Positions 51,149 to 56,152 of a stretch of 64,000 bases of DNA are shown here, one piece after another. The DNA comes from Ignavibacteria bacterium (GTDB lineage: Bacteria; Bacteroidota; Ignavibacteria; Tepidaquicellales; Tepidaquicellaceae). The stretch spans positions 1-64,000 of the forward strand of contig JAQTLX010000001.1 in the NCBI GenBank assembly GCA_028714695.1, read 5' to 3'. The position numbers and the translations under genes are program-made. Numbering within the stretch: the stretch's first letter is position 1; each line of letters starts with the position of its first letter. The notes under the pieces are model-generated. The model ran no database searches. It worked only from the letters and a program-made list of their open reading frames with translations, and was not told the origin of the DNA.

Positions 51149-51167
51149 ATTTTCAACAATTGAAAAT
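51149..51167. promoter_or_regulatory. Inverted repeat upstream of the second ECF sigma gene
   Basis: ATTTTCAA-CAA-TTGAAAAT is a perfect 8-bp inverted repeat with a three-base centre, 62 bases before the sigma factor start. A second small one, TTATTG-AC-CAATAA, is at 51178-51191. Either could be an operator or part of the promoter; position is the only support. Confidence 0.35.
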
Positions 51168-51228
51168 AAATGAAACTTATTGACCAATAACTTTCTCTAA
51201 TTAATAAATGGCGAGCATCAGATAAAAT

Positions 51229-51834
51229 ATGGCTGAAAGAGATTTAAAGAGATTTCCTGAATTATACATGCCTTTGCATAACAGTGCGCTCAGATATTGC
51301 AGGTCTTTGATAGCGGGAAATCCGAATTTTGAAGCAGAAGAATTGCTTCAGCAGTCGCTTCAGATAGCTCTCGAAAATTTCAGCAAGTTAAGAGATGAAG
51401 AAAAATTCAAATTCTGGTTCTTTAAAATAATCACACGCGCTTTTTACGCATACTCAAGAAAAAACTTCTGGAAGAAGCACACTACTCTTGACATCGGAAA
51501 GGAATACAAGGGCTATTCCGAATTTCCGAAAGTTTATGAGGATGAAGAAAACGATGAGAACAGAATGATTCTTTTGAAGGCACTGTCGAAAATCAAGAAG
51601 CGGGACCGTTCGGCTTTCATACTTTACGCCATTGAAGATTTTACTCTCGAGGACATTAAAAAGGTTCAGAATGAAATAAGCGTATCAACGGTAAAATCAC
51701 GGATTTACAGAACCAGAACAAAACTGCAGACATTTATAATCAATTACAATAATAACGAGGTGATTTATGAAAAAGCGGCGGACAGGGAAAATTTAAAACT
51801 ACTTGGAGAAATTGAAAATGAAGTATTTAAATAA
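51229..51834 (+). CDS. ECF-type RNA polymerase sigma factor (second)
   Basis: A 201-residue sigma-70 family factor. Region 2: YMPLHNSALRYCRSLIAGNP and the FEAEELLQQSLQIALENFSKL helix, then EEKFKFWFFKIITRAFYAYSRKNF for -10 recognition. Region 4: LSKIKKRDRSAFILYAIEDFTLEDIKKVQ and SVSTVKSRIYRTRTKLQTFI as the helix-turn-helix. It differs from the sigma factor at 41646. It overlaps its partner gene, and the operon continues with a Spy-like protein and a barrel, which suggests an envelope signal. Confidence 0.9.
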   Translation: MAERDLKRFPELYMPLHNSALRYCRSLIAGNPNFEAEELLQQSLQIALENFSKLRDEEKFKFWFFKIITRAFYAYSRKNFWKKHTTLDIGKEYKGYSEFPKVYEDEENDENRMILLKALSKIKKRDRSAFILYAIEDFTLEDIKKVQNEISVSTVKSRIYRTRTKLQTFIINYNNNEVIYEKAADRENLKLLGEIENEVFK

Positions 51835-53023
51835 ACATAAGAAAAAACCGGAAAATACTTTTTACTTCGAACTAACGGAGCAGGTTGAGTTATTGAAGAA
51901 AACGAACTATGACGATAAGTCCGGTGAAGTAAAAGCATGGCTTCAGTCCAATATAAATGCGATTCCTGTTAAGCAGAAGAACACAAGCATGCGCCATTTC
52001 TTTGTTTATTACCGTCACGGTATCAGACTTGCATTTTCAATTGTGCTTCTTGCTCTCTTTATTGCCGCGGGCAATATACCTTTGTCTTATAATACAACGG
52101 TCGGTTATATATTAAACTGGAACGTAAAGAAAGAAAATTACAGTGAAAAGATTTTTGAACGCTATGAATGGATGAACAATAATCAGGTAGTGACAAGTTT
52201 GAAAAATGTTAACGGAGTCGATCTGCTTTCATTCAAATTAATAGTGAACGATGAAAAAACTTACGAGAATTACGAGAAGGACCTGAAAAATGAAAAATCC
52301 GTACTATCTTATGAAGTACAGCCGATTAACAGGTCCGGCGCCCGCAGTTTGTTCCAGAGGGTATTGAATATATTTATAAGAGTCGATGCGGGAAATAAAT
52401 CCGTCGAGGAGGCGGGCGAAGAACTATCGGCGCAGTTCAATGCTGCGGGGTATAAAAACAGCAGGGTAGTTGTGAAGCAGGGGCCAAGCGGCAAGAAATA
52501 TCTTTTCATAACCATTCCGATTGACAGAAGCATTCAGTCGATGCCGCCCGAAAAACCTCCTTATCTTGAAATAGAGGTTGCTAACAACGGAAATCTTAGA
52601 AGGTTTGTTACTCCTGAAATGCGTATGCCCGATTCGATTATGAAGGATATGCCGCCGCCGATGCGCTTCGGGGACAGATTTGCAGGCAAATCCGATTCCG
52701 AAATCAAGCAGCAGATAAAGGAAGACGTTAAAAAATTCCATAACGAAAATATAAATGACAAGGATATTGAAGTAATCAGAATAAACGGAAAAGTTGTATT
52801 TGCGAAACTAAATAATTCAAAATTCAATGATCCCCCTCTACCCGGACCTCCGCCTATGTTCGAAAGAAACATCGATGAGGCGGACAGAGATTTTATCCGA
52901 AAAGAAATATTTCCCGACGGCGGTCCGGGCAGGTTCTTTAAGAGGGATCACGGAGTTTTTAATCCCGATTCATTAATGAAAAATTTTCCCGAAGAAATAA
53001 TTTCGGTACTTGTTGAGAAATGA
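51818..53023 (+). CDS. Membrane protein partner of the ECF sigma factor (probable anti-sigma)
   Basis: A 401-residue bitopic protein. About 65 cytoplasmic residues (with TEQVELLKKTNYDDKSGEVK and the basic MRHFFVYYRHG) lead into a transmembrane helix near residues 67-88 (IRLAFSIVLLALFIAAGNIP). The extracytoplasmic part has two similar-looking segments around residues 110-175 and 180-260, then a Pro/Met-rich stretch (MKDMPPPMRFGDRF and DPPLPGPPPMFERN). I chose the ATG at 51818, nine bases after a GGAG sequence; 51803 is possible and both overlap the sigma gene. Overlap, membrane span and order imply an anti-sigma factor, without any recognised anti-sigma motif. Confidence 0.65.
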   Translation: MKYLNKHKKKPENTFYFELTEQVELLKKTNYDDKSGEVKAWLQSNINAIPVKQKNTSMRHFFVYYRHGIRLAFSIVLLALFIAAGNIPLSYNTTVGYILNWNVKKENYSEKIFERYEWMNNNQVVTSLKNVNGVDLLSFKLIVNDEKTYENYEKDLKNEKSVLSYEVQPINRSGARSLFQRVLNIFIRVDAGNKSVEEAGEELSAQFNAAGYKNSRVVVKQGPSGKKYLFITIPIDRSIQSMPPEKPPYLEIEVANNGNLRRFVTPEMRMPDSIMKDMPPPMRFGDRFAGKSDSEIKQQIKEDVKKFHNENINDKDIEVIRINGKVVFAKLNNSKFNDPPLPGPPPMFERNIDEADRDFIRKEIFPDGGPGRFFKRDHGVFNPDSLMKNFPEEIISVLVEK

Positions 53024-53052
53024 TCCACAACGCTCTAAATATTTACCCCGTT

Positions 53053-53080
53053 AACTCCCGGGTGTAAAAGCCCGGGAGTT
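53053..53080 (+). terminator. Hairpin between the anti-sigma and Spy-like genes
   Basis: AACTCCCGGG (53053-53062) pairs with CCCGGGAGTT (53071-53080), a 10-bp perfect stem. Only TTTCT follows on the plus strand. It may reduce, rather than end, transcription into the following genes. Confidence 0.65.
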
Positions 53081-53123
53081 TCTAAAAGAAAATAAAAAAT
53101 TTTTAAAATTTAAAAAAGAAAAA

Positions 53124-53540
53124 ATGAAAATGAAGATTTTTGTAGCGGCAATACTGTTGTCTTTTCTGACCTGTCTCGGCTATTCGCAGGACAACAGGCC
53201 CCCTAACGGTCCGCCGGACGGGCCTCCCCGCGACGGAATGAAAATGCCGCCGCCCGAAGAAATGGCGAAAAAAGATATGAAAATGCTGACGGAGGAACTC
53301 AACCTTACTGACAGCCAGATTCCTTTCGTGAAAAAGATTCTCGAAGATTCATATAAGAAAATGCAGGGTAATTTCGATAAAGGCCCCGAAGGTTTTGACG
53401 AAATGAAAAAAGTCATGGATGAGAAAGATGCAAATCTGAAACTCGTTCTGACGGATGAACAGTGGACAAAGTACACCGATCTGATGAGCAAAAGAAAGAA
53501 TAAAATGAAGCCCGGGGATTCATTCCACGATAAAAACTGA
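53124..53540 (+). CDS. Spy/CpxP-like periplasmic protein with two LTxxQ motifs
   Basis: A 138-residue exported protein. After a signal peptide (residues 1-20, CLGYSQ) comes a Pro/Gly-rich linker (RPPNGPPDGPPRDGMKMPPP), then a helical domain. It carries LNLTDSQ (LTDSQ) near residue 62 and VLTDEQ (LTDEQ) near 115, the paired LTxxQ motifs of CpxP and Spy, along with a Met/Lys-rich surface. Spy acts as an ATP-independent periplasmic chaperone, and CpxP restrains an envelope stress sensor, so this is a candidate sensor or chaperone for the sigma system. Similar proteins are labelled heavy-metal sensors, which remains an alternative. Start ATG. Confidence 0.72.
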   Translation: MKMKIFVAAILLSFLTCLGYSQDNRPPNGPPDGPPRDGMKMPPPEEMAKKDMKMLTEELNLTDSQIPFVKKILEDSYKKMQGNFDKGPEGFDEMKKVMDEKDANLKLVLTDEQWTKYTDLMSKRKNKMKPGDSFHDKN

Positions 53541-53566
53541 ATCAAATAGCGGGTGAATAAAAATAA

Positions 53567-56152
53567 TTGATAAAAAAGATGTATTATAAAAGATTAATAG
53601 TGATGTTATTCCTGACTTTGTTCGTTTGTTCGGCATATTCTCAGGATATAGATTTAAAAACAAAAACCGGGAATGAAGGAGTAATTCTCGGAGCAGTAAT
53701 AGACAACGATACGGGTTCTCCGTTGGAGGAAGCTGTTGTACAGATTTTCAGTAATAAGGATTCCATTCCGCTGCTATCAGTCTCAACGGATAAAAGAGGA
53801 ATTTTTTCTCTGGAAGTCGATTACGGAAAATACAGGATTAGATTCAGTTATGTAGGATACAAGGACTTAATAAAATCGGTAAACATCACGCGTGAAAATC
53901 CGGTAAGGAATATCGGAAACGTAATGCTGAAACAGGGAACTGAATCAACACCGGAAATAGAAGTCACGGAAGAAGCGCCTCTGATGGAGAACCAGATCGA
54001 TAAGAAAGTATATAATGTCGAGAAGAGTATCATAAGCGAAAGCGGTACTGTTGTCGATGCTTTGAAAAACCTTCCGTCGGTTACTGTCGATTCCGACGGA
54101 AAGGTTTATCTACGCGGCAGCAGTAGTGTAAGAATTCTTATAAACGGCATGCCTTCTGCAACACTTGGGGACGATCCGTCAACCGTACTTGACCAGATTC
54201 CTTCAAAGATGGTTGCCTCAATCGAAATCATGAACAATCCGTCTTCCAAATATGACCCCGAAGGCACTTCGGGTATTATTAATATTATTCTCAAGAAAAA
54301 ACAGGACGACGGCGTTAACGGAAGCATCAGTCTGAATGCAGGAACCAGGGATAAATACAGTTCTTCGCTGAATCTGACAGCAAGGAAGAACAAACTGACT
54401 CTTAACGGAAATTATAATTTCAGACTGTTCAATATGACGGGAAGCGGTTCTTCTTATAAGAAAACTATTCTTGGAGATACGGCTTATATATCCAGCCAGA
54501 CAAGCGTTTCCAGAGACAAAATGTACTCACATTTCGCAACGCTCGGAATGGATTACGAAATAAACAGTAAAAATATTCTTTCCCTTTCGGGTAATTATAA
54601 TTACAGGGGGATGAACATTCATGAATTTTCACAGAATTATACAGGTGCAGAAAACAGTCTTGTTACATCCTCCTATACAAACGATATGTCGAAGAGCCTG
54701 AGCGGTTACGGAATGGACATGAACGTAAACCACAGGCTGAAATTCAGCAAACCAAAAGAGGAATTAATAACTTCCGCTCAATATTCGAAAATGAACATTA
54801 CCGATGCAAACAGCAGACTTATCGCGGATGTGAATTCAAACAATGTAACTTCGTCGCAAAGAGACAGCACGATAAATAAAATGGAATTATTCTCCTTTCA
54901 GTCGGACCTCACCATACCGCTTGGAAATGTTGAAGTGAAAGGGAATAACAACTCAAATATATCCAATAACAACAATCCCCCCGGCCCTGGTCCGATGGGT
55001 CCGGGAGGTCCTAATCCGCCGAATGCTCCATCAGTGTCCGGAAATACGGCAAAGGTCGAAATGGGAATTAAGGCATCGTACAGGAAAATGAACTCGGATT
55101 ACAAATCGAATTATCTCGATCTTAACACACAGAACTGGGTTTACAACGACCTTACCAGCAATAATTTCGAATATAAGGAACAGATATTGTCGGCATATGC
55201 AAATTACACGAATAAAATATTCGATATAGGTTATCAGGCAGGTTTGCGCATAGAACAGGCAAATACGAAATCGAATCAGTACACTCTGAATCTGAGCAAT
55301 GACAATAATTATTTCAGTTTGTTCCCGAGCATTTATCTTTCTAAGACAATTGCTAAGACGCATGAATTACAGGCGAGTTATACAAGAAGAATAAACAGGC
55401 CGAATACATTCATGCTTAATCCGTTTACGGATTACAGCGATCCGCAGAATTTAAGAAAAGGAAATCCTGATCTGAAACCGGAGTATATAGACGCGCTGGA
55501 ATTCGGTTACATGAAATATTTCTCGTACATTTCGGCATCGGGTTCGGTTTTTTACAGAAGGGTCAACGATGCAATAAACAGGATAGTATCCGTTATTGAC
55601 AGCGCCACATCGATAACAACATTTGCAAACGTTTCAACTTCTTCATCGTACGGACTCGAGTTTGTTCTTTCAGGAAGCCTGACCAAATGGTGGTCGGTTA
55701 ACGGAAGCCTGAACTATGCAAAGACAACGGTTAACGGAAGCAACATCGCCGGCGGAATGAATAATTCCGCGGATGTGTTCTCAGGTAAATTGATGACAGG
55801 TTTATCGTTCAGGAATTTATTTGAACTAATGGTATCGTATTTCTATTCGGGAAAAATGGTGACGGCTCAGGGCAGTATGGAGCCGATGCAGATGATGGAC
55901 ATAGCCATCAAGAAAGAATTTTTCGATAAGAGAGCAAGTCTGAATCTGAGGATATCGGATGTTTTAAATACCATGAAGTTTTCAGTGGTCTCCGGGGGGA
56001 GTAATTTTTACAATTCATTCTCCAGAAGACGTGATTCACGGGCGCTTTTCCTTACCTTCACATTAAGGTTTGGAAAAGACCCGCTGAATCAGAAAAAGAT
56101 GAAGGAACCGGAAAAAGAAATTAAGAATGACGGCAATCAGGAAGAGTATTAA
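53567..56152 (+). CDS. TonB-receptor-like outer membrane beta-barrel protein
   Basis: An 861-residue protein of the outer-membrane barrel family with carboxypeptidase-regulatory-like N-terminus. It has a signal peptide (about residues 1-26, SAYSQD), an Ig-like domain (GAVIDNDTGSPLEEAVVQIF, residues 38-118) and a plug-like segment (DALKNLPSVTVDSDGKVYLRG, 165-235). A barrel from about 250 to 835 ends with the strand ALFLTFTLRFGKDP, then a charged tail. A Pro/Gly-rich insert (PPGPGPMGPGGPNPPNAP) near residues 468-485 sits in a presumed extracellular or periplasmic loop. The start is TTG at 53567 or the ATG at 53579 four codons later. It ends the sigma operon-like cluster; no nutrient substrate is identifiable. 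Confidence 0.85.
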   Translation: MIKKMYYKRLIVMLFLTLFVCSAYSQDIDLKTKTGNEGVILGAVIDNDTGSPLEEAVVQIFSNKDSIPLLSVSTDKRGIFSLEVDYGKYRIRFSYVGYKDLIKSVNITRENPVRNIGNVMLKQGTESTPEIEVTEEAPLMENQIDKKVYNVEKSIISESGTVVDALKNLPSVTVDSDGKVYLRGSSSVRILINGMPSATLGDDPSTVLDQIPSKMVASIEIMNNPSSKYDPEGTSGIINIILKKKQDDGVNGSISLNAGTRDKYSSSLNLTARKNKLTLNGNYNFRLFNMTGSGSSYKKTILGDTAYISSQTSVSRDKMYSHFATLGMDYEINSKNILSLSGNYNYRGMNIHEFSQNYTGAENSLVTSSYTNDMSKSLSGYGMDMNVNHRLKFSKPKEELITSAQYSKMNITDANSRLIADVNSNNVTSSQRDSTINKMELFSFQSDLTIPLGNVEVKGNNNSNISNNNNPPGPGPMGPGGPNPPNAPSVSGNTAKVEMGIKASYRKMNSDYKSNYLDLNTQNWVYNDLTSNNFEYKEQILSAYANYTNKIFDIGYQAGLRIEQANTKSNQYTLNLSNDNNYFSLFPSIYLSKTIAKTHELQASYTRRINRPNTFMLNPFTDYSDPQNLRKGNPDLKPEYIDALEFGYMKYFSYISASGSVFYRRVNDAINRIVSVIDSATSITTFANVSTSSSYGLEFVLSGSLTKWWSVNGSLNYAKTTVNGSNIAGGMNNSADVFSGKLMTGLSFRNLFELMVSYFYSGKMVTAQGSMEPMQMMDIAIKKEFFDKRASLNLRISDVLNTMKFSVVSGGSNFYNSFSRRRDSRALFLTFTLRFGKDPLNQKKMKEPEKEIKNDGNQEEY

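Follow-up and report, generated by a model that had tools for sequence, protein, structure and literature searches.

Within the window, a 64,000-nucleotide stretch of an Ignavibacteria bacterium (assembly GCA_028714695.1, contig JAQTLX010000001.1, positions 1 to 64,000 of the forward strand; 3.85 Mb draft genome), four co-oriented genes at 51.2-56.2 kb code for an extracytoplasmic function (ECF) sigma factor (SIG), a bitopic anti-sigma-like membrane protein (ANTI), an exported Spy-like protein (SPY) and a TonB-dependent-receptor-like barrel (BAR), and may form an envelope-response cassette with a periplasmic relay to SIG, a reading to which we assign a probability of about 0.4. The gene set of the original prediction, a sigma factor, a bitopic membrane partner, a small exported protein with two LTxxQ motifs and a receptor-like barrel, was confirmed in full by open reading frames (ORFs), motifs and profiles.

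SIG (51229-51834, +; 201 aa) exceeds the Pfam cut-offs for Sigma70_r2 (29.6 bits) and Sigma70_r4_2 (34.5 bits) and the NCBIfam cut-off for TIGR02937 (69.8 bits), and its about 200 aa comprise sigma-70 regions 2 and 4 only, the make-up of an ECF sigma factor. ANTI (51818-53023, +) most likely starts at the ATG at 51818 rather than at the TTG at 51803 given in the ORF list, because a GGAGA ribosome site lies just upstream of the ATG; from there, it overlaps SIG by 17 nt. The protein opens with cytoplasmic helices (about 65 aa), followed by one transmembrane (TM) helix, a periplasmic ferredoxin-like domain and a C-terminal extension; in its structure model, a three-helix N-terminal part runs into the TM helix, and the alpha/beta domain at residues 87-176 is well predicted. 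ANTI had no Pfam match up to E 1, and thus no zf-HC2, FecR or other known anti-sigma domain; among solved structures, the sequence search found no relative beyond a weak match to BamA (E 0.035), and the fold search with the model gave generic ferredoxin-like matches (NikR, PII, S6; Z < 9) and no family call. A cytoplasmic helical domain, a TM helix and joint encoding with the sigma factor are the layout of ECF anti-sigma factors; the SIG and ANTI genes adjoin and overlap and have long been conserved as a pair, which, with the topology of ANTI, suggests that ANTI binds and inhibits SIG.

SPY (53124-53540, +; 138 aa) begins with a signal-peptide-like N-terminus and carries the motifs LTDSQ and LTDEQ. 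It scores 20.8 bits against Pfam LTXXQ (PF07813), below the cut-off of 24.3, and reaches E 9e-8 with the NCBIfam Spy model, its score there being far under the equivalog cut-off, and it is accordingly called Spy-like and not a family member; PF07813 is matched at E < 0.01 by seven of the ten aligned homologues, and the sequence search for solved relatives of SPY found none. BAR (53567-56152, +, with a probable start at the ATG at 53579 rather than the TTG at 53567) contains CarboxypepD_reg, Plug (PF07715) and OMP_b-brl_3 (PF14905; 322 bits, cut-off 27), has 22 strands by count in its structure model, and retrieves TonB-dependent transporters with Foldseek at E values down to 1e-23. Gaps of 100 nt and 26-38 nt separate ANTI from SPY and SPY from BAR, respectively.

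The three proteins encoded after SIG share Pro/Gly-rich tracts. ANTI contains MPPPMRFG (52649-52672, +) and PPLPGPPPMF (52832-52861, +), the latter opening the C-terminal extension and having a matching remnant in the sister genome G001; SPY contains RPPNGPPDGPP right behind the signal peptide (53196-53228, +); and BAR contains PPGPGPMGPGGP (54977-55012, +), held in a 42-aa loop between strands 8 and 9 (residues 453-494; 54923-55048, +). These stretches, pointed out in the original prediction, are real: when the maximum of Pro plus Gly in 12 residues was taken for the 141 ORFs (120 aa or longer) of eight loci in the same genome, BAR ranked first with 11, SPY second with 8 and ANTI joint third with 7, together with four others, the maximum being 6 or less in 134 ORFs. 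The tracts use varied codons and are not linked by any DNA repeat; DNA slippage or copying is therefore not their source. In a comparison of the window with G001, the BAR core tract and the SPY tract have changed little in amino acid sequence despite differences at 12/21 and 7/11 fourfold sites, respectively, similar to the remainder of the two genes, which suggests selection at the protein level.

Both ANTI tracts fall in poorly predicted stretches of the model beyond the domain that ends at residue 176, and the BAR loop has a pLDDT < 50, the other even turns of the barrel model being short (about 2-6 residues), in line with expectation. In TonB-type barrels, the strand after the plug points outward, so that turns after even strands are periplasmic; by this strand parity, the tract loop of BAR is predicted to be periplasmic as well as disordered. 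Given the signal peptide of SPY and the topology of ANTI, the predicted location is periplasmic for the tracts of all three proteins, so that these could meet. Glycine-rich runs also occur elsewhere in the BAR family, in Chitinophaga (L154-L187), whose barrels, frequently encoded as tandem pairs, have runs of 5-8 Gly.

In the 200 nt upstream of the ANTI-paired sigma genes of 28 loci, a promoter motif was present at the corresponding position in 26, and TGCGACTT-N16/17-TC[TA][TA]AT-like elements, about 20-45 nt before the start codon, in 24. The version before SIG, TGAAACTT-N17-TCTAATT, has diverged from the family motif TGCGACTT-N16/17-TCTAAT, and its part at 51171-51200 (+), TGAAACTT-N17-TCTAA, is predicted to be an autoregulatory promoter; locus L061 carries another variant, TGTAACTT. 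The recognition helix has diverged at the same two loci: the 24 sigma factors with a canonical -35 element have a VKSRLSR-type helix (one reads IKSRLSR and one VKSRLSS; family form S[AS]VKSRLSR), compared with VKSRIYR in SIG (STVKSRIYRTR) and IKLRLSR in L061. The genome encodes one paralogous SIG-ANTI pair (at C24), and the single exact copy of the canonical motif in the whole genome lies at that paralogous sigma gene, as the single exact copy of the window variant lies before SIG. Because the -35 element and the recognition helix change together, the two paralogous pairs probably use separate promoters, and transcription by SIG of its own operon from 51171-51200 is strongly supported by the conservation of the motif and by this matching change. 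The palindrome ATTTTCAACAATTGAAAAT (51149-51167, no strand assigned) ends 4 nt before the -35 element and is a possible operator or UP element. The original prediction had proposed to look for a sigma-specific promoter motif both near this repeat and before 53124; the former was found, just downstream of the palindrome, and the latter was not, a TCTAA at 53034 noticed by eye upstream of SPY having no -35 element at a suitable distance. In two other genomes of different families, G022 (L224, at C24) and G043 (L230, at C115), TGCGACTT-N-TCTAAT stands directly before an exported beta-lactamase-family gene, whose identity was checked against PF00144 on the G022 protein; this gene is the only common extra regulon member seen, and it likely belongs to the regulon of SIG-family sigma factors.

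Of 59 relatives, 29 have a homologue of ANTI, adjoined by a SIG homologue in the neighbourhoods read, and from this distribution SIG-ANTI is a widespread two-gene module; both the C-terminal extension and the tracts of the window protein are absent from all these homologues. Other odd tails are seen in ANTI-like proteins at L061:8726-10006 (PDIEIPDIEIPDIEEQEIEI) and L058:3536-5032 (long and Met/Lys/Asp-rich), which suggests that the C-terminal tail of the ANTI family is a variable module. Many homologues, such as L035:7215-8210(-) and L043:7923-8858(-), read MKNFF...hydrophobic...IAAC-N at the TM helix, with a lipobox-type Cys in about 25 of 28 alignment rows (Gly in the window, Thr in L053 and L054); the motif resembles an internal lipoprotein signal and may reflect processing, lipid anchoring or a second start.

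The genes that flank the block, coding for a DsbD-like and a sorting-domain protein, directly adjoin in G011 and G023 (131 and 146 bp apart), and the block was therefore inserted as a unit. The closest homologues of BAR and SPY are found in the sister genome G001 at the same genomic place, in the order deaminase, DsbD-like, SPY, a broken 3' remnant of ANTI that still displays the tract region, SPY, BAR and sorting-domain gene. The simplest history would be insertion of the block in the common ancestor of the window genome (G000) and G001, followed in G001 by loss of SIG-ANTI and duplication of SPY. The first SPY copy of G001 stands behind TAAAACTT-N16-TCTAA (L062:2828-2856), in the position that the lost SIG promoter would have had. 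Joint conservation of the four genes, which the original prediction had proposed to examine, was thus found in part, as one inserted block and as a layout that recurs in the same order, and not in the form of a stable quartet, SIG-ANTI standing alone elsewhere and being lost in G001.

That recurrence comes from a second, independent locus of the same genome (L065 6977-11571, G000:C2, about 398-402.6 kb), with an ECF sigma factor, a zf-HC2 anti-sigma factor, a Spy-like protein and an OMP_b-brl_3 barrel. Its zinc-finger anti-sigma factor is unrelated to ANTI and its barrel is related to BAR; the small protein is membrane-anchored (120 aa) and aligns with SPY in hhalign with a probability of 94% (E 1.6e-7). 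The order is complete in G000, G008 and G023 and split over two contig ends in G001, and it is kept across three genera; in G009, the anti-sigma factor and the small protein were found near a contig end. In the surroundings of 142 barrels of the BAR family, sigma, anti-sigma and Spy-like neighbours were present together only in the window, L065 and L083, to which a later search added L262 and the split G001 locus. Counting of LTxxQ-like motifs near these barrels was rejected as a measure, since in Chitinophaga many of the hits were false, being small proteins that were unrelated or encoded on the opposite strand. As judged from these neighbourhoods, the four-part layout is uncommon but recurrent. 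Beside another barrel of the genome, L068 1405-3764(-) (G000:C3) holds three tandem ORFs of about 250 aa with a common N-terminus, KRKLKLEDIKVESFVTS, which we take to resemble the leader peptides of Bacteroidota peptide natural products.

The cassette could work as follows. The N-terminal helices of ANTI would hold SIG at the inner membrane, and SIG, once released, would start transcription of its operon at the TGAAACTT-N17-TCTAAT promoter, with transcription passing the intergenic region at least partly and reaching SPY and BAR. In the outer membrane, BAR would form a TonB-receptor-like barrel, and SPY would act as a periplasmic chaperone-like protein; together with the ANTI C-terminal tail, SPY would monitor the periplasm or the state of BAR. 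The disordered Pro/Gly segments of BAR, SPY and ANTI could compete for one another in the periplasm; excess, unfolded or unloaded receptor, or a stress that occupies SPY, would free ANTI and lead to release of SIG, which would raise the levels of SPY and BAR. Such a relay is plausible; binding among chaperone, receptor and anti-sigma factor, control of SPY-BAR by SIG and the direction of the signal are inferred. The most specific version, in which the Pro/Gly segments of the BAR loop, an addition to the periplasmic face of the receptor, of the SPY N-terminus and of the ANTI tail bind one another, SPY reports the amount or state of BAR to SIG, and the same plan came together on two occasions in the genome, around anti-sigma factors unrelated to each other, is rather doubtful.

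Several observations weigh against the cassette, and most of them are equally what would be expected if SIG-ANTI, as an autoregulated pair, and SPY-BAR, as a chaperone assembling or protecting its receptor, were two independent units brought together accidentally or recently. In all other loci examined, SIG-ANTI has neither SPY nor BAR beside it; G001 keeps SPY (twice) and BAR after the loss of SIG-ANTI; the SIG-type promoter before SPY is missing; and an 11-bp hairpin (53053-53080, +; z -3.65), with a related hairpin in G001, separates ANTI from SPY, although with no long T run it would be an attenuator or weak terminator at most (the window has no Rfam match and no tRNA). Two separate units would nevertheless have to account for an intact block where relatives have nothing between the flanking genes, for a four-part order seen again in several genera with a different type of anti-sigma factor, and for tracts that ANTI carries besides SPY and BAR, that other ANTI proteins do not have and that the ANTI remnant of G001 retains in its tract region; we consider this arrangement somewhat unlikely. 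The tracts themselves are restricted to the window genome and its sister species G001, so that their conservation, held in the original prediction to be decisive, extends to the sister genome and fails in the 27 aligned ANTI homologues, in the other aligned Ignavibacterial barrels and in nearly all barrel homologues. The second locus has no Pro/Gly tracts, and they are therefore dispensable for the four-part layout; moreover, the ANTI model has a mean pLDDT of 65, a low overall confidence.

It is quite possible, if short of probable, that the tracts are ordinary flexible low-complexity linkers of separate origin whose resemblance is meaningless, which is compatible with either wiring of the genes. 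Pro/Gly segments are frequent in disordered linkers, runs of Pro/Gly are seen as well in the stand-alone Spy-like protein of L125, and the Chitinophaga barrels mentioned above show Gly-rich ones; this view fits poorly with three adjacent genes at or near the top of the 141 ORFs, with the absence of the tracts from the aligned relatives of ANTI and BAR, and with amino acids held while synonymous sites changed. The CnrYXH system of Cupriavidus metallidurans joins an ECF sigma factor, a membrane anti-sigma factor and a Spy-fold periplasmic sensor, and this shared architecture, the Met residues beside the tracts (MPPPM, PPPMF) and a Metal_resist (PF13801) match in one of the ten SPY homologues would agree with metal or copper sensing, in which SPY would be the CnrX-like metal sensor and the Met/Pro tracts would supply the metal ligands. 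SPY itself, however, matches LTXXQ and DUF4890 and not Metal_resist (up to E 1), the tracts have no His/Cys cluster, no metal transporter adjoins the block, and the window adds a receptor barrel to the CnrYXH plan; metal sensing, which is not indicated here, is improbable. Surface signalling of the FecA-FecR-FecI type, with BAR as the signalling receptor, is suggested by a TonB-dependent-receptor-like gene adjoining those for an ECF sigma factor and an anti-sigma factor, and is more improbable still: BAR has CarboxypepD_reg and no STN signalling domain, ANTI has no FecR domain (Pfam, up to E 1), identity with FecIRA was rejected at this domain level, and the window has an additional Spy-like gene.

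Among known systems, CpxP and Spy of Escherichia coli are LTxxQ periplasmic proteins of envelope stress pathways, as SPY may be, and are served by the two-component systems CpxAR and BaeSR, in contrast to the sigma/anti-sigma pair here. Dma proteins combine an anti-sigma domain, a disordered tether and a barrel in a single chain (PMC13088901); the window likewise links an anti-sigma domain, one TM helix and a disordered periplasmic segment to an outer-membrane barrel. In Dma, however, the anti-sigma factor itself ends in the barrel as its C-terminal domain, whereas here the genes are separate and ANTI has a short disordered tail; identity with Dma was rejected, ANTI having no C-terminal beta-barrel in its model and no barrel domain in Pfam. 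The nearest parallel is Phocaeicola vulgatus, in which colitis induces no genes more strongly than the ECF sigma/anti-sigma genes cirYZ and spy, which is transcribed with them; without CirZ, expression of cirY and spy goes up, and a further spy paralogue lies behind another sigma/anti-sigma pair and directly before a SusC/D pair (PMC13114119, 2026). In gene layout, both systems have adjacent and co-oriented sigma, anti-sigma and spy-like genes, and the second P. vulgatus locus has a TonB-receptor-type gene (SusC) directly downstream of spy; by the published description, the window differs in its OMP_b-brl_3 barrel in place of SusC and in having no SusD, and Pro/Gly tracts are not reported for P. 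vulgatus. The statement that no four-part system of this layout had been described is therefore partly right, since sigma/anti-sigma/spy operons have been published, one of them before a SusC/D pair (PMC13114119).

What is new here is the Pro/Gly add-on in three of the four proteins and the repeated assembly of the layout with different anti-sigma types. In gut Bacteroidales, operons of the sigma/anti-sigma/spy type are a very recent finding, and a matching add-on in receptor, chaperone and anti-sigma factor makes the locus a concrete candidate for a chaperone that monitors an outer-membrane receptor. With its clean promoter and, in one genome, two paralogous pairs of different specificity, the SIG-ANTI family also offers a regulon that is directly testable.

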